From a virus, in the IMG/VR virus record IMGVR_UViG_3300011407_000003, positions 1 through 21,772 of that record: 21,772 nucleotides of DNA; one strand, given 5' to 3'. Every line of letters starts with the position of its first letter. The first letter of the stretch is position 1. Position numbers and translations under genes: made by a program. The notes beneath the pieces are model-generated. The model was given only the letters and a program-made list of their open reading frames with translations, had not been told where the DNA came from and made no database searches. Below, in pieces: positions 3,945 to 21,772 of the stretch.

Positions 3945-4493
3945 GTGATTAAAAAGCCTCGCAGATTAAGCACCAAAGCCCTGATATTCTGCCGATTATA
4001 CGCTACCTCGGAGAATATAGTCAAGTCATACATGGAGGCTTATGGTACTACCCATTACAATAGCGCAGCTTCTAACGGCCAGAAGCTATTCAAACGCCCT
4101 GCAGTACAAGCTCAGATCGAGAAACTCCGCGTACCACTTACCAAAATATACTCCCCCGATGTAGTTAGGGCTGAATTCGCCGTATTATATGAAACGAGTA
4201 AATCAGAGCTAATTAAGGCTCGTTGCCTGGAGAACTTAGCCCGCTTCAATGGAATGTATGTGGAAAAGACTATCAACGTCAATGCAAACGTAACTCAGAA
4301 TATGCCTGATCTTAAGCACGTACCATTGGATCAGCTTGAACGTGAGTTTATAGGCCGCATGAAATTGGAAAGTACAGGAATTGAGACATTCGCAAGGAAA
4401 GAGTTACAAGCCACTGAACTAGTGCCATTAATCGCTCAGGGATCACTTGAGACAGATGAAACGCCGCTAATTGCAGAGAGTATCAATGAATGA
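3945..4493 (+). CDS. Terminase small subunit (probable)
   Basis: The predicted product has 182 residues with GTG as start. The N-terminal half has the layout of small terminase subunits: LSTKALIFCRLYATSEN, then SYMEAYG (helix-turn-helix-like), AASNGQKLFKRPAVQAQIEKL (A..G..L...P.V...I). The middle part (FAVLYETSKSELIKARCLENLARFNGMY) matches the oligomerisation-type region of these proteins, and the C-terminus is acidic. The subunit recognises phage DNA and guides the large subunit during packaging. The large terminase gene lies about 1 kb downstream, separated by the HTH gene and the micro-ORF chain. The start is uncertain: there is only GAGA directly before the GTG and no well-spaced ribosome binding site. 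The gene is flanked by the 17-bp inverted repeat. Confidence 0.75.
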   Translation: MIKKPRRLSTKALIFCRLYATSENIVKSYMEAYGTTHYNSAASNGQKLFKRPAVQAQIEKLRVPLTKIYSPDVVRAEFAVLYETSKSELIKARCLENLARFNGMYVEKTINVNANVTQNMPDLKHVPLDQLEREFIGRMKLESTGIETFARKELQATELVPLIAQGSLETDETPLIAESINE

Positions 4494-10729: not shown

Positions 10730-11962
10730 ATGGCAATATCTTATGCGTCTACCCCCTTTACTTTCGTAGACAGTCAGTTTGGGTCGGCAAGCGCAAGCAA
10801 TATCAAGTCTCTGGTTAATGTTGTTGTTGACCGGAGATACCACAAGGAAGTCCAGAAAAAGACTTTCTTTCAGTCGCATGGAATGATCGGTGCAGACGTT
10901 TACAGCGAAGGCGACTTTGCTCAAACGGCTCCCGGACTTCCGGTAGTTCGTAAGACTGACCTCACCGCGCAACCTGGCGATACGATTAAGATGGGACTTC
11001 GTAAGAACCTGTCTTTTGCTATCTCGACTGGTACGACTGGCGGGACTCAGTTGGTGGACAGCGAAGTAGGATGGGATTTGGACAATCAGTTGGTGAAGGT
11101 CGAACAGTTCCGGCAGGGTGTTCGTACAAACGGTGGGATCAACTCTCAGCGTAATCCGTATGAACCCTTTGAACAGACGGAAGTGTCTCTGCTTTCTGAC
11201 TGGTCAGCCCAACAGAAAGACACATCCATTCTTTATGCGATGCACTACGGCTTCGGACATCACCTGCTCCGTAAGTACGGACACACCAACCTCGCCCCTA
11301 CGGCGGTTATCAATACCCTCTACGGTAATGATACCACGATGACCACATCTCGCACGATTGCGAATATGTTGGGCGCGGGAACGGACAACGTGAAGCCGGT
11401 TACATTTGAAATCGGCGAAGCGTACTGCCGTCAGGCAGAGTTCGATCCCATCTCGGTTGGCGGAGATTCGTACTGGGTCGCCCTCATTTCACCGAAGGCG
11501 AAACTGGCTCTCTACCAAGATGCGACATTCCGCTCTGCGGTTCAACACGCCCGCGAACGTAGCGTCGATAATCCACTGTTCAAGTACGGCGATGGTCTTA
11601 TCTACGGTAACTGCATCATCTTTACCTATGACAAGATTCGCACCATTCTTGGCGGGAACAATCCGGCTGGTCTGACGGTTTCCAACGATGTAATCACGGA
11701 AGCCGCTTATACCGGAATCGGTGGTGGTCTTGCTTCAACCGATCTTCACGCGACGTACTTCTTAGGTGCGAACGCTGTCGTTTGGGCTGACGGTATGTAC
11801 TCAATGGCAGAACGCATCCGAAGCGAGAACGACTACGGAAATATCATCGGTCGTGCAGTTGATGAGATTTTCGGAACGAAGCGGGCAGATTGGAAGAACG
11901 AAGGTGGGACTATCGACATCAACCAGTCACTGCTTCAAATTGTTAATTCAACCGTACTCTAA
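10730..11962 (+). CDS. Major capsid protein, N4-gp56 / DUF4043 type
   Basis: This 410-residue protein builds the head shell, presumably with an HK97-like fold. Recognised pieces are KKTFFQSHGMIGAD (about 43-56), DLTAQPGDTIKMGLRKNLSF (the family's DL....GD.I...L...L), VEQFRQGVRTNGGINSQRNP (the family's v.qfR...r..G....QR), and the long C-terminal part with YWVALISPKAKLAL. AGGAG lies six bases before the ATG. No distinct pro-peptide is seen. The stop overlaps the next start (TAATG). Confidence 0.9.
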   Translation: MAISYASTPFTFVDSQFGSASASNIKSLVNVVVDRRYHKEVQKKTFFQSHGMIGADVYSEGDFAQTAPGLPVVRKTDLTAQPGDTIKMGLRKNLSFAISTGTTGGTQLVDSEVGWDLDNQLVKVEQFRQGVRTNGGINSQRNPYEPFEQTEVSLLSDWSAQQKDTSILYAMHYGFGHHLLRKYGHTNLAPTAVINTLYGNDTTMTTSRTIANMLGAGTDNVKPVTFEIGEAYCRQAEFDPISVGGDSYWVALISPKAKLALYQDATFRSAVQHARERSVDNPLFKYGDGLIYGNCIIFTYDKIRTILGGNNPAGLTVSNDVITEAAYTGIGGGLASTDLHATYFLGANAVVWADGMYSMAERIRSENDYGNIIGRAVDEIFGTKRADWKNEGGTIDINQSLLQIVNSTVL

Positions 11963-12207: not shown

Positions 12208-12534
12208 ATGGAAAAGATCAGTGCTGTCATTAAATGTAACGCGGGGGAATGGGTAGCTACTTTGTCGCTGCCTGTCGGTAAAGCTAAAGTCCTCCACTTT
12301 GCAAAGGAGAACAATTTCACGCTTGAGGTTGAAAAGGAGGTTACCTTCGTTGACCATTTCGGGAAAGTGAAGGTTCATCATCCTAATTGGCCTCAGCACC
12401 TTTTGGACAACTACAAGTTCCTGGAACTGGTAGAAGTCAAGAAGGAAGAAGCTATCGTCGCGCCCCATATTGTGGATAGGAAGGCCGAAGCCAAGAAAAA
12501 GAAAGGATCAGAAAATGAAAAAAGTAATCTTTAA
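12208..12534 (+). CDS. Hypothetical head-region protein with basic tail
   Basis: This 108-residue protein starts MEKISAVIKCNAGEWVATLS and has beta-prone repeats of hydrophobic and charged residues. The C-terminus is strongly charged (KAEAKKKKGSENEKSNL). AAAAGGAAAAA precedes the ATG. Its last 20 bases overlap the next gene in a different frame. No family is recognised. Confidence 0.8.
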   Translation: MEKISAVIKCNAGEWVATLSLPVGKAKVLHFAKENNFTLEVEKEVTFVDHFGKVKVHHPNWPQHLLDNYKFLELVEVKKEEAIVAPHIVDRKAEAKKKKGSENEKSNL

Positions 12535-12973
12535 GGCTGTGTCGGGGCTGATGCTCCTTGCGACCGTGTTTCTCTTTATCGGCGCGGGGAACTATCTCTC
12601 TGTTCCTCTTAGAGCGGGAAGTCCTCAGACATCAGTTGTTGTAACGTATGCTAACTCTCAGGTGGACACGCTTCGCTTCATACGCGAGCCGGGTCTGGCT
12701 GGACTATCGTTTGCACTTCGGGCGAAGGACTCTATGAGTCTTACCAGTGTTCGTGTGCGAAGGGTGGTCAACGGAGTAATGCTTGCTCCTGTCGCGGGAG
12801 ATACGATTATCACCACAGTCGTTTCGATAACAAACGATACACTCAAGATAGCGACGGTGACATTGGCACCGCTTTGTGATGAGTACAGGTTCTTCATCAC
12901 TTATGCGGCTTCTGCTAATGGCGTTACCACGCCTACTGTTGAGTACGTCTTCAACCGTCAGTATCAAGATTAG
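12515..12973 (+). CDS. Protein with N-terminal signal/membrane segment
   Basis: I place the start at ATG 12515, which has AAAGGA about eight bases upstream, giving 152 residues; longer in-frame readings lack this. The N-terminus has MKK, then about 20 hydrophobic residues (GLMLLATVFLFIGAGN), which fits a signal peptide or a membrane anchor. The rest is beta-rich: VVVTYANSQVDTLRF, then SMSLTSVRVRRVVNGVM and later TIITTVVSITNDTLKIATVT. No family is recognised. Placed between head genes and adaptors, it could be a minor virion protein. A hydrophobic export-like start is unusual for such a protein. Confidence 0.8.
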   Translation: MKKVIFKAVSGLMLLATVFLFIGAGNYLSVPLRAGSPQTSVVVTYANSQVDTLRFIREPGLAGLSFALRAKDSMSLTSVRVRRVVNGVMLAPVAGDTIITTVVSITNDTLKIATVTLAPLCDEYRFFITYAASANGVTTPTVEYVFNRQYQD

Positions 12974-12976
12974 AAG

Positions 12977-13582
12977 ATGGCCACTGCCCAAGATATAGTA
13001 AACGAGTGGGCGGCGGGTGATGAGGACAAGCAGCAGCTAGTAATCCGTAGTGGGTTGCCCTTGAGATGGTTAAATCAGGGGCAACTCCGCTACTTCGATA
13101 AAAGCGAAGTGCTGCGCGGTGTCTGGACTCCAACTATCACCTCGTCTGGGAACATCGCCCTACCGAGTGATTTCTTAAGGGAATTTCCCAATAGAGTTAA
13201 ACGGGATGTTTCTGATTCGTCTGATTTGCCTCTGGGGAAGATTGATTACCCAGACGCTAATCTGATGGACTTTTCAGCGTTGACTCATTACTCAATCTGG
13301 AATGGGACGCTCTATGTTTGGTCAGCCGGAGCGTGTACCCCGTCCGTTCCATACATTAAGAAGCCAGCCGTACTAGCTTCGTTCGCAAGTGATTTGAGTG
13401 TCCCGACCGAGTTCCAGCATAATCTGATTATCTATCTCGACGCTCACTGGGTGAAGATTCAGAAAGATTTAGCCGGACATTACGCTCTGATGAAAGAGTT
13501 TGATAATCAAGCCCGTCAGGATGGGGTAATGAACATAATCAGGAATAATCAAATTCCGACGATAAGGGGGAGTTGGTTCTAA
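12977..13582 (+). CDS. Head-tail adaptor-like protein 1
   Basis: This 201-residue protein has WLNQGQLRYFDKSEVLRG (31-48), TPTITSSGNIALPSDF (51-66) and HYSIWNGTLYVWS in the middle, then a helical C-terminal half. This layout is typical of podovirus adaptor proteins that sit between portal and tail (the SU10/phiEco32-like kind); the family call is from memory. Several segments line up with the next protein, so the two look like paralogues. The stop overlaps the next start by one base (TAATG). AGAAG lies close to the ATG. Confidence 0.65.
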   Translation: MATAQDIVNEWAAGDEDKQQLVIRSGLPLRWLNQGQLRYFDKSEVLRGVWTPTITSSGNIALPSDFLREFPNRVKRDVSDSSDLPLGKIDYPDANLMDFSALTHYSIWNGTLYVWSAGACTPSVPYIKKPAVLASFASDLSVPTEFQHNLIIYLDAHWVKIQKDLAGHYALMKEFDNQARQDGVMNIIRNNQIPTIRGSWF

Positions 13583-16842: not shown

Positions 16843-18957
16843 ATGAAAATAACATTAACTCTTATTTTACTTTACGCATCATGCGTAACGCATGGGTTTG
16901 CACAGTCCAAGACTACCAATTTTAGGTTGAATCTCCATGACCCAGGTACTACGATTGTCTCAGGGTCAAAGACGGACACGGCTACGTCAAACGTAGGCGT
17001 GAACGGGTCGATGCTCAGAATTGACACATACTTGGGGCATTGGTTCAGCGTAAATGATTCGTTAAGGAACATTAAGATACTTCGGTTCACAGATACGGTC
17101 AGCAAGAAGATTGATTTTGTGGCTAATGGTAATGCGTTCTTGGACGTGGCCAATTCGATTTACAGGCCAGCGATAACACTTGTGTCAAGGGACAGTGGGT
17201 ACTTGTCCAGCAACGGTGTGGCATTGAAATCCGTGTCTCAGGGGCTGTCCAAGACGCTCTCAGTTGTAGGCGCGGCAGGGGATGGGGAAGTTTACGGTTC
17301 GGGTCGCAGGCAGCAGGATTCAAATGCCACGTTCAATCGGTTCTTTGCGGTATGGAATGACACGGCTTTGTTCTATGTCAATGGTAACGAGGTTACGCGA
17401 CTTGACACAAATGGGCTTAGAGTACAACGAGACGTAATACTGAACAACGGTGGGAATTTAACTGCTCCCTCGCTCAAGTTCAAGATTATTGACGTGGCTG
17501 GCGGGAGTGCGCCGGATAGTGTGAGCATTGGCATTACAGCGGGAGCGTTGGGGGTTAGGGCTATTGCCATGAGTAACCCAATTCAGTTGCCATCAATAAC
17601 CTCAAATAATCTCTCCGGCAAGAGCAGACTCTTAACTGCAAGTGGCGATACGCTCATTTTCAAGGATGAGTCCAACGTCATTAATCGCGTTAAGCTGTCT
17701 GGTGCTTCGGCTGGTCAGGCGTTGGGGTGGAGTGGTTCGGCGTGGGTTCCGACAACGATTAGCGGTGGTGGGGGTGGTTCTGGAAACGGTGTAAGATTAA
17801 AGCGCGTTGATGGTTCTGTCAACATCTACCCAGATACAACGATTAGCTTAACCGATAGAAACTTCACGCTCTCAACTGGCGTGGGGTCGGAAGGTATAAT
17901 TAACACAATCCAGAACATTGACTCGACGGCTTCATTTAAAGTCAGGACTTTAACGGTTGACTCAACTGGTGGCTCTGCTGGCAATTTGAAGCTAACAAAT
18001 GGTACAGGAAAGATAGCAACGATTAATCTTGGCGGCGGAAACAATAATACGTCTGTTCTTTTTCCCGACACATCGGGCACAGTTTTCTTGGCAAATAGCG
18101 GTCAGACGGTCACCGCAGGAGTTTGGAATGGAACTCAGATTGGCTACGCCTACACGACGCACATGAGCGGGGCGAACATCGGAGATTCAATTAACACAAA
18201 ATCAGCCGGAGATACGATAGCCGTTCCGTGGTATTTCACAGGTGGGATGAGTTCGTACAATTCTGGCTCTGCTAATTCACTCAGATTCGGTCGTGGTGCG
18301 GTTACAGCAACAGACGCAACTGCGGTTGGCGATTTAGCGACTGCATCAGGGACTGGCGCAGTAGCATTAGGGTATAATGCAAATTCTACCAACTCAAATA
18401 CAATCTCGATAGGAAAGAACACTACCGTTTCTGGTATCAGTGCGATTGGTATTGGCGTGAGCGTCACATCAACAGATACATCTTCAATCGCCATAGGAAA
18501 TACAGCCAACGCAAGTTCCCGAAATGGGATCGCAATAGGACTGCAAGCGAACGCAAACGGAAAGCGAACCGTTGTTTTGGGCGCGGGTTCTTCTGCTGGT
18601 GGGTACGATTCATCCGTAGTCTTTAATACGACGGCAACGGGCAAGCATCACATTGAAACAGCTTCGGTTGATACGCTCGTTCTACCTTCGGGTAAGGTCA
18701 AAGCCAACGGCAGGATAGTGTCACTAGACTGGACAAGTGACTCAATCTATATCGCGGCTGGCGCAACACGGAAAGCCAAGTATATCTCAGGATTAACAAC
18801 GTACAGTAAGGTTAGGTATTTCTTTCAGGACTCACGCCCCGCTCAGGTATTAAGTGCAACACCCAAAGCATACACCAAAACAGACAGTATAATCATTGAA
18901 GCATATCAGACCTTTGACTTGGACAGCGCATATTTCTATGTGGAGTATAGACAATGA
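16843..18957 (+). CDS. Tail-fibre-like protein with signal peptide and YadA-type repeats
   Basis: I choose ATG 16843, two bases after the preceding stop; an upstream TTG at 16813 is in frame but less likely. It gives 704 residues. The start is MKITLTLILLYASCVTHGFA, a hydrophobic signal peptide with a likely cut after A20 (GFA|Q); YASC at 11-14 could instead be a loose lipobox. The rest is beta-rich and fibre-like, with a glycine hinge SGGGGGSGN (307-315). Residues about 490-588 form YadA-head-type repeats (ATAVGDLATASGTGAVALG, then SAIGIGVSV, SSIAIGNTA, NGIAIGLQA), which make trimeric left-handed beta rolls in bacterial adhesins. It is probably a trimeric host-binding fibre. The stop overlaps the next start (ATGA). 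Confidence 0.8.
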   Translation: MKITLTLILLYASCVTHGFAQSKTTNFRLNLHDPGTTIVSGSKTDTATSNVGVNGSMLRIDTYLGHWFSVNDSLRNIKILRFTDTVSKKIDFVANGNAFLDVANSIYRPAITLVSRDSGYLSSNGVALKSVSQGLSKTLSVVGAAGDGEVYGSGRRQQDSNATFNRFFAVWNDTALFYVNGNEVTRLDTNGLRVQRDVILNNGGNLTAPSLKFKIIDVAGGSAPDSVSIGITAGALGVRAIAMSNPIQLPSITSNNLSGKSRLLTASGDTLIFKDESNVINRVKLSGASAGQALGWSGSAWVPTTISGGGGGSGNGVRLKRVDGSVNIYPDTTISLTDRNFTLSTGVGSEGIINTIQNIDSTASFKVRTLTVDSTGGSAGNLKLTNGTGKIATINLGGGNNNTSVLFPDTSGTVFLANSGQTVTAGVWNGTQIGYAYTTHMSGANIGDSINTKSAGDTIAVPWYFTGGMSSYNSGSANSLRFGRGAVTATDATAVGDLATASGTGAVALGYNANSTNSNTISIGKNTTVSGISAIGIGVSVTSTDTSSIAIGNTANASSRNGIAIGLQANANGKRTVVLGAGSSAGGYDSSVVFNTTATGKHHIETASVDTLVLPSGKVKANGRIVSLDWTSDSIYIAAGATRKAKYISGLTTYSKVRYFFQDSRPAQVLSATPKAYTKTDSIIIEAYQTFDLDSAYFYVEYRQ

Positions 18958-21772
18958 ATAAACTAATCACAGTCATTTTATTCACCTTTGCGCTCACCGC
19001 TTCCGCGTTTTCTCAGATAACGTGGACGTACTCTACAAGAGATGCGATGAATTGGGCTACGGGGGACTCAGCCAACGCCCATCCCAAGTGGCGCAAAATC
19101 ATTGACACATCGGGTGGAAGTCCTCAGAGGAATTTAAAGGGGGCTACGGCTGCGGGTGGTGCTGGTCAAGCTGCAACCGGGTTTAGTTCGTTGGGGTCGG
19201 GGGATCGCGCCGGAGCGTTCTGGGATTCAGCGATGGTCATGGACACCAACTCATTCTCCTTCGTCTGGAAGCAGAACGAGGATTCTAGCTACACTTATGC
19301 GATTGGTTCTACGACATTCTACTTTGGCTTGAACGACAGCAACCGCCAGAGATGGCGAGGGTTGGCTTTTAGAGTGGCGAGACAAAATCCGGGCAGTACC
19401 AATGGCGGCGATTATCGTTCGTCATTTTACAAGGTTGATTCCACGACAGAGGGTGTGGCGACAGGCAACGTTGACCTTTTCTCTGGTGGGTTTGCCTTGC
19501 GTCAGAACGACACACTGCGAGTTGTTAATCATGGTGGCTCTCTGTGGGCGTATTGGGTCAGAGGTGGCGGGGCAGGGACTACGCTGATTGATTCAGTCCC
19601 CTACTCAGCCCTGAACGCGGCATACTTGACTAACCCAGGCAGAATAGCTGTGCGTTCGCGTGTATCAGCCGTCCCGCCGATGTTCAACACATTTCAGATA
19701 GGTACTAAGAGTGGGGCGGCTTCACCTGGGATATTGCGTGACACGATACCACCCGTGATTACAAACGTTACGCCATCGTTTAGCGTAATGAACACGCAGA
19801 CATTTACAATCTCTGCCCAGATAACGGATAGTAACACCACGACCCAGAAGAATCCAGGGGTGGATAGTATATGGCTAAAGTTTGGGACTACGTATGCTAT
19901 TGGTCAGGGTGGTGCGCCAGACACGGTGGTGGGGGATTCGGTTATCATTAAAGCTGGAACCACTAAAGATACGGTGATAAGTAAATTGTTCTCAGCTAAA
20001 TCTGTTGGGACGTACTATTACCAGATTAAAGCAAAGGACGATACTGCCAACACAAGAATATCCCCGAGGCAGACACTTGTTGTTGGGACTGTCGCTCAGA
20101 ATCCGTTCAAGATTCATGGGTACTTTTATGTCCAGACTCTTTCTTCGTGGTGGCCTGCAATCGAAGCAAATCCGTCGATTTTGGGTGATTTGGCTACGAA
20201 CCAAGACATTCTATACTGGTTCTACGATAATCCAGACACCCTCTTTCCACACTTGAGAGCAAGAGTCCCAGATCAGGGTAACGCTCAATACCCCAATGGG
20301 TCGATGGCGGCAGACTCCGCAAGGTTATTTGGTTGGACAAGATCGAGCGGGACAAGGAATATCATGTATCAGTTCCGTGATTCCATGCACGCCCACGGCA
20401 ATAAGTTTGTATTAGCTATCTCGGCCGTTGTTGGATTCGCACCAGCAACAGCCGTCCAGTTACAAATCATTGTCAACGATACGACCAAGAGTAAGAACTT
20501 CGCCTCTACTCTGGGCAAATTTTGCAATCTTCATAAGATAGATGGTATAGACTTCAACTGGGAGTTCCCCGCTCAGAGCAATAAAGCATTTATGTTCCAG
20601 TTCTTCAAGAAGTTGAAGGACTCACTAACCGTCTATTCTTGGGATGGTCAACCGCCGATTATATCTTTAGACCTTGAAACTCAATCAACCGTTGTCGGGA
20701 ATCAGTCATACGACTTCTCAGCATTAGATTCTCTGTGTACCTACGTTTCAGTTGTATCGAGAGATAGGTTCTCTTATGCAAGCCCACAGTACACGGCAAA
20801 TCCTCGTGGCGTATCACGACCGAGAGTCGGTAGCACTTACGGACTACCTGGCGACACGGTAAAAGGTTTTGATATGTACTCAATGAGCGATACAACGTGG
20901 CAGAACGGCTTAACCTATATTACGGTTAATGGCCTTAGGGCGGGGGGAATTAGAGCGTCAAAGGCCGTCCAAGTTCTTGGATTTGGTGCTTACGAGGTGT
21001 GGGGTGGGGCATCAGGGCCGGGGCAGTCTGCTTCTGGGGTTACTTTTGGAGATGCGGGTGTGCCAAGTGGCCAACTTGGTGAATCAAATAATGGTTCTTC
21101 CGCCCAGACCTACTTAGATCAATATTGGAGTCCAATGAGAGAATGGCGCGACTCCACGAACAATCACTATCTTGGCTATCGACTTCCCAGTAATGCTAAA
21201 CGAACCGTCATTTATGACGATTCGGTTTCGCTTGGCGAACTTGTTAAGCATCTTAAGTCAAGAGGTTTTTCCGGCATCATGTATAACGAGGCGGCGTGGC
21301 TACAAAACTCAGCGGGATGGAGGGGCAACAATGACCGTCTATCCTTCCTTAAGTGGATGAGGGCTGCGGCTGACGCTCCTACGTTTACAACGGTTGGCAT
21401 GCCTGCTCCCGTTGCCCCGACCGACGGTTCTACTAATCAGGGTTCTCCGAGCGCGGGAACGATGGCGGTAACTTTCAGATGGAATAAGGTCTCTAATGCG
21501 AACGAGGGTTACCACATCTCTGTTTCAGCGGACGGAAGATTCAATACGGCTGTTGGCGGAGCAGACCAAGACGTGGGCACAACTTCGACCGATACGACCG
21601 TGACCATAAGCGGATTAGCTTCAAACTCCGTATTCTACTGGAAGGTCGTTGGCAGGATGGGGAGATTCTATGGGTATTATTCAAGAGTTCACAGATTCAC
21701 GACAGGCAGTACGACATCCACCCCAACTCGCAGACCGTACAAGCCACAGTTAGTCGCTCCTGCAAATGCGGC
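18954..21772 (+). CDS. GH18 chitinase-like multidomain protein with signal peptide, open at the right edge
   Basis: ATG 18954 opens a frame that has no stop to the window edge (939 codons). GGAG lies eight bases upstream and the start overlaps the preceding stop. Order: signal peptide MNKLITVILFTFALTASAFS (1-20); a beta-rich, lectin-like part (about 21-250); an Ig-like part (about 262-380); a GH18-type barrel (about 385-805); an FN3-like domain (about 817-917); and a linker with VAPANAA that may begin another FN3. The GH18 signature IDGIDFNWE (529-537) fits the family's pattern, with E537 as the acid/base. The second-last acidic position is N535 where Asp is usual. GH18 enzymes cut beta-1,4 GlcNAc-containing glycans; some members are catalytically dead. 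The target here could be a cell-surface glycan or peptidoglycan. Confidence 0.8.
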   Translation, partial: MNKLITVILFTFALTASAFSQITWTYSTRDAMNWATGDSANAHPKWRKIIDTSGGSPQRNLKGATAAGGAGQAATGFSSLGSGDRAGAFWDSAMVMDTNSFSFVWKQNEDSSYTYAIGSTTFYFGLNDSNRQRWRGLAFRVARQNPGSTNGGDYRSSFYKVDSTTEGVATGNVDLFSGGFALRQNDTLRVVNHGGSLWAYWVRGGGAGTTLIDSVPYSALNAAYLTNPGRIAVRSRVSAVPPMFNTFQIGTKSGAASPGILRDTIPPVITNVTPSFSVMNTQTFTISAQITDSNTTTQKNPGVDSIWLKFGTTYAIGQGGAPDTVVGDSVIIKAGTTKDTVISKLFSAKSVGTYYYQIKAKDDTANTRISPRQTLVVGTVAQNPFKIHGYFYVQTLSSWWPAIEANPSILGDLATNQDILYWFYDNPDTLFPHLRARVPDQGNAQYPNGSMAADSARLFGWTRSSGTRNIMYQFRDSMHAHGNKFVLAISAVVGFAPATAVQLQIIVNDTTKSKNFASTLGKFCNLHKIDGIDFNWEFPAQSNKAFMFQFFKKLKDSLTVYSWDGQPPIISLDLETQSTVVGNQSYDFSALDSLCTYVSVVSRDRFSYASPQYTANPRGVSRPRVGSTYGLPGDTVKGFDMYSMSDTTWQNGLTYITVNGLRAGGIRASKAVQVLGFGAYEVWGGASGPGQSASGVTFGDAGVPSGQLGESNNGSSAQTYLDQYWSPMREWRDSTNNHYLGYRLPSNAKRTVIYDDSVSLGELVKHLKSRGFSGIMYNEAAWLQNSAGWRGNNDRLSFLKWMRAAADAPTFTTVGMPAPVAPTDGSTNQGSPSAGTMAVTFRWNKVSNANEGYHISVSADGRFNTAVGGADQDVGTTSTDTTVTISGLASNSVFYWKVVGRMGRFYGYYSRVHRFTTGSTTSTPTRRPYKPQLVAPANA

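Follow-up and report, generated by a model that had tools for sequence, protein, structure and literature searches.

What does a GH18-type glycosidase domain do in a phage tail gene cluster if the third aspartate of its catalytic motif is replaced by asparagine—does it cut glycans or bind them, and does it act on the virus particle or elsewhere? The question is raised by the last gene of the window, that is, the whole stretch of DNA analysed here, which corresponds to one entire IMG/VR virus record of 21,772 bases.

The GH18 domain and its setting

The late operon of the window is podovirus-like, as Pfam identifies a P22-type portal, a Phage_capsid_3 head protein, and an SU10 adaptor. These matches agree with an earlier sequence-only reading of the window, which had placed a GH18 gene after a fibre gene in such an operon. 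All three sister contigs stop short of the GH18 gene, and its 3′ end is not covered. The contig of its phage relative L060 breaks, like the window, within the FN3 repeat region of this gene, and perhaps these repeats stop assembly. The features of the locus are listed below, with identities to L060 and occurrences in a second phage relative, L062.

12515–12973, + strand: small gene after the capsid gene, signal-peptide-like N-terminus (simple rule)
16843–18957, + strand: fibre-like gene upstream of the GH18 gene, signal-peptide-like N-terminus, YadA-head repeats, ATGA overlap with the GH18 gene
18954–21772, + strand: GH18-domain protein gene, from ATG at 18954 to the contig end without a stop, 939 residues seen
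18954–19016, + strand: signal-peptide-like N-terminus MNKLITVILFTFALTASAFSQ, residues 1–21 (simple rule), similar in L060 and L062
19017–19727, + strand: N-terminal all-beta domain, residues 22–258, 34% identical to L060, possibly a lectin-like sandwich (uncertain)
19728–20093, + strand: Ig-like linker domain (RDTIPPV...), residues 259–380, 44% identical to L060, present in L062
20094–21377, + strand: GH18-type TIM barrel, residues 381–808 (Pfam, PDB profile, fold comparison)
21378–21772, + strand: FN3-like repeat(s), cut by the contig end; weak fn3 match, FN3 also after the barrel in L062 and in the bacterial protein L014

For the N-terminal domain, a Pfam search with residues 22–258 gave no match, and its model is all-beta at low confidence (pTM 0.46). 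A firm "LamG" label was dropped, as this model is too poor for naming a fold.

The sequence-only reading had recognised a GH18 signature in IDGIDFNWE at residues 529–537, and D530, D533, N535, and E537 are indeed in place. This is no chance motif, since PF00704 (GH18) matches residues 502–776 well above its cut-off (E 3e-13, 50.6 bits versus 29.6); the same family scores 59.7 bits in L060 and 56.7 bits in L062. An AlphaFold2 model of residues 385–824, built with 22 relatives, displays a TIM barrel with a pTM of 0.74 and a mean pLDDT of 65.9—the core strands being good and several insertions poor. Strand 4 of this model comprises G531–F534, with N535 and E537 at its C-terminal end, so that the motif is predicted where a GH18 barrel should carry it. 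Another fold, or a motif away from the end of strand 4, would have spoken against the sequence-only reading, and the model displays neither. The matches listed by Foldseek and VIA-align are all GH18 proteins—active chitinases and chitinase-like lectins alike—and the best of the VIA-align matches reach a Z of about 31 at an rmsd near 3 over about 340 residues. Together with a PDB profile search, whose matches shown are GH18-type, Pfam and the fold comparison hence support the GH18-type barrel that had been proposed. Enzyme and lectin are not separable by the predicted model.

A likeness to GH85 had been suggested as well. Hereby, the Asn two residues before the catalytic Glu (N535/E537) stands, whereas membership in the family does not: a Pfam search at E up to 1 reported GH18 and fn3 only, with no GH85 match, and the listed folds are GH18. 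GH85 structures are absent among the fold matches listed, an absence from a list that is no evidence in itself. Judged by sequence and predicted fold, the domain is GH18 by descent, not GH85, and the likeness would be at most convergent and one of mechanism. That it is a GH85 endo-N-acetylglucosaminidase is extremely improbable, as the equal N-x-E spacing of Endo-A (N171/E173; PMC2646837) is set against Pfam, PDB profile, and fold matches of GH18 type and against the retained D533 of the GH18 DxxDxDxE motif.

An asparagine shared by a small group of phages

In the viral contigs, a whole-protein scan found no relatives of the window protein, and a first scan with a GH18 alignment and a 29-base motif scan returned nothing. 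A looser scan for DG.D.NWE picked up five matches, and three of these lie in GH18 proteins; the matches L063 and L064 were rejected as chance hits that are not GH18. The final alignment scan of these contigs found no relatives beyond L060 and L062, and relatives of the GH18 domain and the fibre occur in none of the records of a searched collection of 50,697 annotated phages. L060 lies on a contig of 38.8 kb and is 30% identical to nearly the whole window protein, with the motif DGVDLNWEYP. L062, from a contig of 63 kb, is a complete protein of about 1,803 residues with about 21% identity to the window protein and the motif DGVDINWE; it consists of two copies of the N-terminal domain pair, the GH18 domain, FN3 repeats, and a fibre-like end.

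In the contigs of both relatives (L060 and L105/L112), the GH18 gene is directly preceded by a homologue of the fibre gene (31% over 413 and 39% over 201 residues), and both homologues have signal-peptide-like N-termini. A blastp comparison at 1e-4 of the window with the L060 and L062 contigs gave no head-gene matches, so that conservation is stronger in the gene pair than in the head genes. The portal and capsid of contig G405 belong to the same broad PHROG families as those of the window.

The expectation that Asn would be kept among phage relatives is borne out in the two that were found. On these sequences, Asn535 is a real, conserved feature of a small phage group that is kept by selection, since the same swap and the same two-gene arrangement are seen in two distantly related phages. 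Were the Asn due to a sequencing error, or to neutral change in a gene that is decaying, one base change (GAC to AAC) would be enough, and no second contig covers the GH18 gene of the window; nevertheless, this explanation is very improbable, as the reading frame is intact over 939 codons and Asn is also present in L060 and L062—independent contigs at the identities given above.

Asp is found at the position of N535 in 36 of 41 aligned rows, and the five Asn rows are the window, L060, L062, the viral L061, and the cellular L113. Among 395 genomes of the phylum of L010—an Ignavibacteria protein—the Asn pattern occurs once, in L113, and 72 genomes contain the Asp pattern, about 100 times in all; both patterns require W at the next position and, hence, undercount Asn and Asp alike. 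L061, on a viral contig and of different architecture, and L113, from a cell genome, carry the Asn in an otherwise ordinary active site, which makes them good natural controls for an enzyme comparison.

In a phylogenetic tree, the three phage domains fall together, with one origin in 98% of bootstrap trees and a support of 93/52, and L010—a secreted GH18 protein with Asp—stands beside them with a support of 91/90. The branches of this tree are long, and the joining of window and L060 was flagged by the program as a possible long-branch effect; shared architecture and gene order lend independent support to the grouping. While L010 is nearest to the phage domains in the tree, a second Ignavibacteria protein, L014, is nearest by whole-protein score. 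Both resemble the window protein in being secreted and in bearing a GH18 barrel, in L014 with FN3 repeats. They differ in the Asp at the Asn position, a CxGG (SxGG-like) in strand 3, a T9SS sorting tail, and a location off phage contigs; the strand-6 MxYD site reads MTYD in L014 and MQYG in L010. Ignavibacteria as hosts are no more than suggested by the style of the FN3 repeats and by these closest GH18 proteins. This is no proof of the host, since relatives of the capsid were not found in the 395 genomes of this phylum, nor relatives of the N-terminal domain in 99 of its genomes.

Glycan cleavage or glycan binding

The activity of the domain has to be judged from the strand-4 motif and the sites around it:

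20538–20564, + strand: strand-4 motif IDGIDFNWE, residues 529–537 (sequence, model)
20556–20558, + strand: Asn535 codon AAC at the usual Asp position (alignment)
20562–20564, + strand: Glu537, general acid position, invariant in alignments
20418–20426, + strand: strand-3 site ISA, residues 489–491, where SxGG is usual (alignments)
20751–20765, + strand: strand-6 site VVSRD, residues 600–604, where MxYD is usual (alignment)
21270–21287, + strand: strand-8 site SGIMYN, residues 773–778, with the usual Trp replaced (model, alignment)

The DxxDxDxE motif is incomplete in the window—DGIDFNWE, with Asn as the third Asp and the Glu present. Residues 530, 531, 533, 535, 536, and 537 (D, G, D, N, W, and E) are identical in the three phages, which makes the motif the densest invariant eight-residue stretch (6 of 8) of the 428-residue domain. 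This density was reached in 68 of 20,000 shuffles, in a count whose three phage rows are related and hence not independent, and the conservation could be partly structural, as strand 4 belongs to the barrel core. It argues against the relic in the "glycan-binding relic" that the sequence-only reading had considered, and so does the kept Glu. On the contrary, the neighbouring motifs have been lost, which argues against an ordinary chitinase. Strand 3 reads ISAV, ISAI, and IVAI, so that none of the three phages retains SxGG; the MxYD (or QxYN) site reads VSRD in the window, ESSS in L060, and QLYD in L062 and is lost in two of three; and the strand-8 Trp, W in 35 of 41 aligned rows, is replaced by N778 in the window and by Tyr in L060 and L062. 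From these alignments, the −1 subsite of the phage domains may be unfit for catalysis.

Three known systems help to interpret this pattern. By way of the DxxDxDxE motif, we take D313 of ChiA and D142 of ChiB to correspond to N535. For ChiA-D313N and ChiB-D142N, a lower Km and more transglycosylation have been reported (PMC5505975). GH85 Endo-A shares the Asn two residues before the catalytic Glu and uses a substrate-assisted mechanism, in which N171 forms a hydrogen bond with the acetamido group; in the N171A mutant, hydrolysis is abolished (PMC2646837). Endo-A is, however, of a different family, with no sequence or listed fold match and a Tyr205 that has no clear equivalent in the window protein. 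The chitinase-like proteins CHI3L1/YKL-40, SPX-40, and Ym1 have the same fold (Z about 31) and an altered catalytic motif; in YKL-40, A and L replace D and E, whereby activity is lost and chitin binding kept (PMC11190707). Unlike YKL-40, which has no catalytic Glu, the phage domains retain the Glu and both other Asp. From these precedents, we infer a glycan-recognising domain that is possibly a slow or altered glycosidase.

By sequence and analogy, the domain is thus best read as a glycan-recognising GH18 offshoot and perhaps as a slow or altered glycosidase. In the joint explanation that we favour tentatively—it falls somewhat short of an even chance—a secreted GH18 module, probably that of an Ignavibacteria-like bacterium, would have been taken over by a phage lineage and built into a long protein of adhesin-like make-up (beta domain, Ig, GH18, and FN3), whose gene stands in the tail gene cluster right after the fibre gene. 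The barrel would recognise a glycan that contains GlcNAc and belongs to the envelope or matrix of the host. Glu537 would be retained as the proton donor, and Asn535 may orient the 2-acetamido group of the substrate for substrate-assisted cleavage, as Asn171 does in Endo-A. The outcome would be a slow, altered, or transglycosylating enzyme and not a chitinase. The MxYD Tyr position counts against this explanation—it is Arg in the window and Ser in L060, yet the GH85 mechanism uses a Tyr (Y205 in Endo-A). The exchange of Asp to Asn at this site is known from laboratory chitinase mutants; in the phages, it has become fixed in nature, with the catalytic Glu retained. With such a group, the question of whether a GH18 site can shift to a GH85-like mechanism becomes testable.

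Alternatively, the barrel might be a lectin that binds a GlcNAc glycan for attachment without cutting it, in the manner of the chitinase-like lectins. The erosion of the three other active-site motifs would fit such a lectin, as would the best structural matches, among which the CHI3L1/SPX-40 lectins are tied with active chitinases, and the example of the inactive yet chitin-binding YKL-40 (PMC11190707). That the general acid Glu and the two remaining Asp are invariant in three divergent phages, within the most conserved stretch of the domain, speaks against it. Known GH18 lectins often do not have this Glu. Overall, we regard a pure lectin as a tangible possibility that stays below even.

Phage-borne glycosidases have been described before. 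TP84_26, the tail fibre depolymerase of Geobacillus phage TP-84, resembles the window protein in its GH18-like domain and the tail setting of its gene, and strips the host capsule (PMC10131341, PMC10815759), which makes it a precedent for the favoured explanation. It differs in being YdhD/YaaH-type, in its motif GIEIDCE with Asp, in its kept MTYD, and in its Gram-positive host; a profile comparison of TP84_26 with the window family gave no detectable match. The prophage-encoded chitinase of phage_KT1, a host-supporting gene product of 177 residues, is phage-borne as well, but is GH19 (PMC11788074).

Virion part or exported protein

The sequence-only reading had spoken of a tail-end protein. 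That the GH18 gene lies within the tail gene cluster holds for the window and for contigs G403 and G405, whereas membership in the virion is put in doubt by the signal-peptide-like N-termini in three phages. Both the GH18 protein and its fibre neighbour bear them in all three—the one of the window GH18 protein had been missed by that reading, and the one of the G405 fibre, MRKTIQFLMLIFLFGCPVFAQ, is missed by the simple rule and plain by eye. Classical tail proteins are synthesised and assembled in the cytoplasm, and, hence, export by the infected cell has to be taken seriously as an alternative. Such signal peptides on tail-cluster proteins raise the question of whether these are parts of the particle or are exported; a literature search for tail proteins with signal peptides turned up no relevant paper.

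In the case of export, the GH18 protein and the fibre would be non-virion proteins, Sec-exported by the infected cell and acting in the periplasm or on the surface—for host-glycan change, matrix release, superinfection exclusion, or lysis help. This concerns location and is compatible with either reading of the activity. Besides the N-termini of both proteins in all three phages and those of small post-capsid genes in the window and G405, it is favoured by the closest cellular GH18 proteins, which are secreted and, in the case of L010 and L014, end in T9SS tails, and by genes for a GT9 glycosyltransferase and further possible modifiers of glycans on a sister contig. However, the tail-cluster position is kept in three of three phages, with an SU10-type adaptor gene a few genes downstream in G405, and the complete L062 protein has a fibre-like end and no match in a Por_Secre_tail search, the C-terminus of the window protein being cut by the contig end. 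In addition, the signal peptides were judged by a simple rule and by eye. Weighing both sides, we consider export somewhat less probable than even. In the most far-reaching combination, a phage-specific GH18 offshoot would have evolved Asn-assisted catalysis in convergence with GH85, and the fibre and the glycosidase would be exported through Sec and be passed on as a pair between phages whose head genes have diverged strongly; this is unlikely.

Further observations concern neighbouring genes and the sister contigs. At L105, two small post-capsid genes (11449–11907 and 12652–13026) have signal-peptide-like N-termini, as does the gene at 12515–12973 of the window, in two phages whose head genes have diverged. 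The glycan-related genes mentioned above lie at L110 10915–15964, on sister contig G003 upstream of the window, and comprise the GT9 glycosyltransferase, two radical-SAM/SPASM-like proteins, and a methyltransferase as possible surface-glycan modifiers. Positions 1–179 of the window form a tandem array of 14.9 copies of 12 bases that code for repeats in a DUF6745 protein, and the sister contig has a longer stretch of these repeats (L110, 1965–3176). Finally, the gene at the position of the terminase small subunit (3945–4493 in the window, 6410–6952 in L004) differs in its N-terminal part between otherwise near-identical contigs, which suggests recombination.
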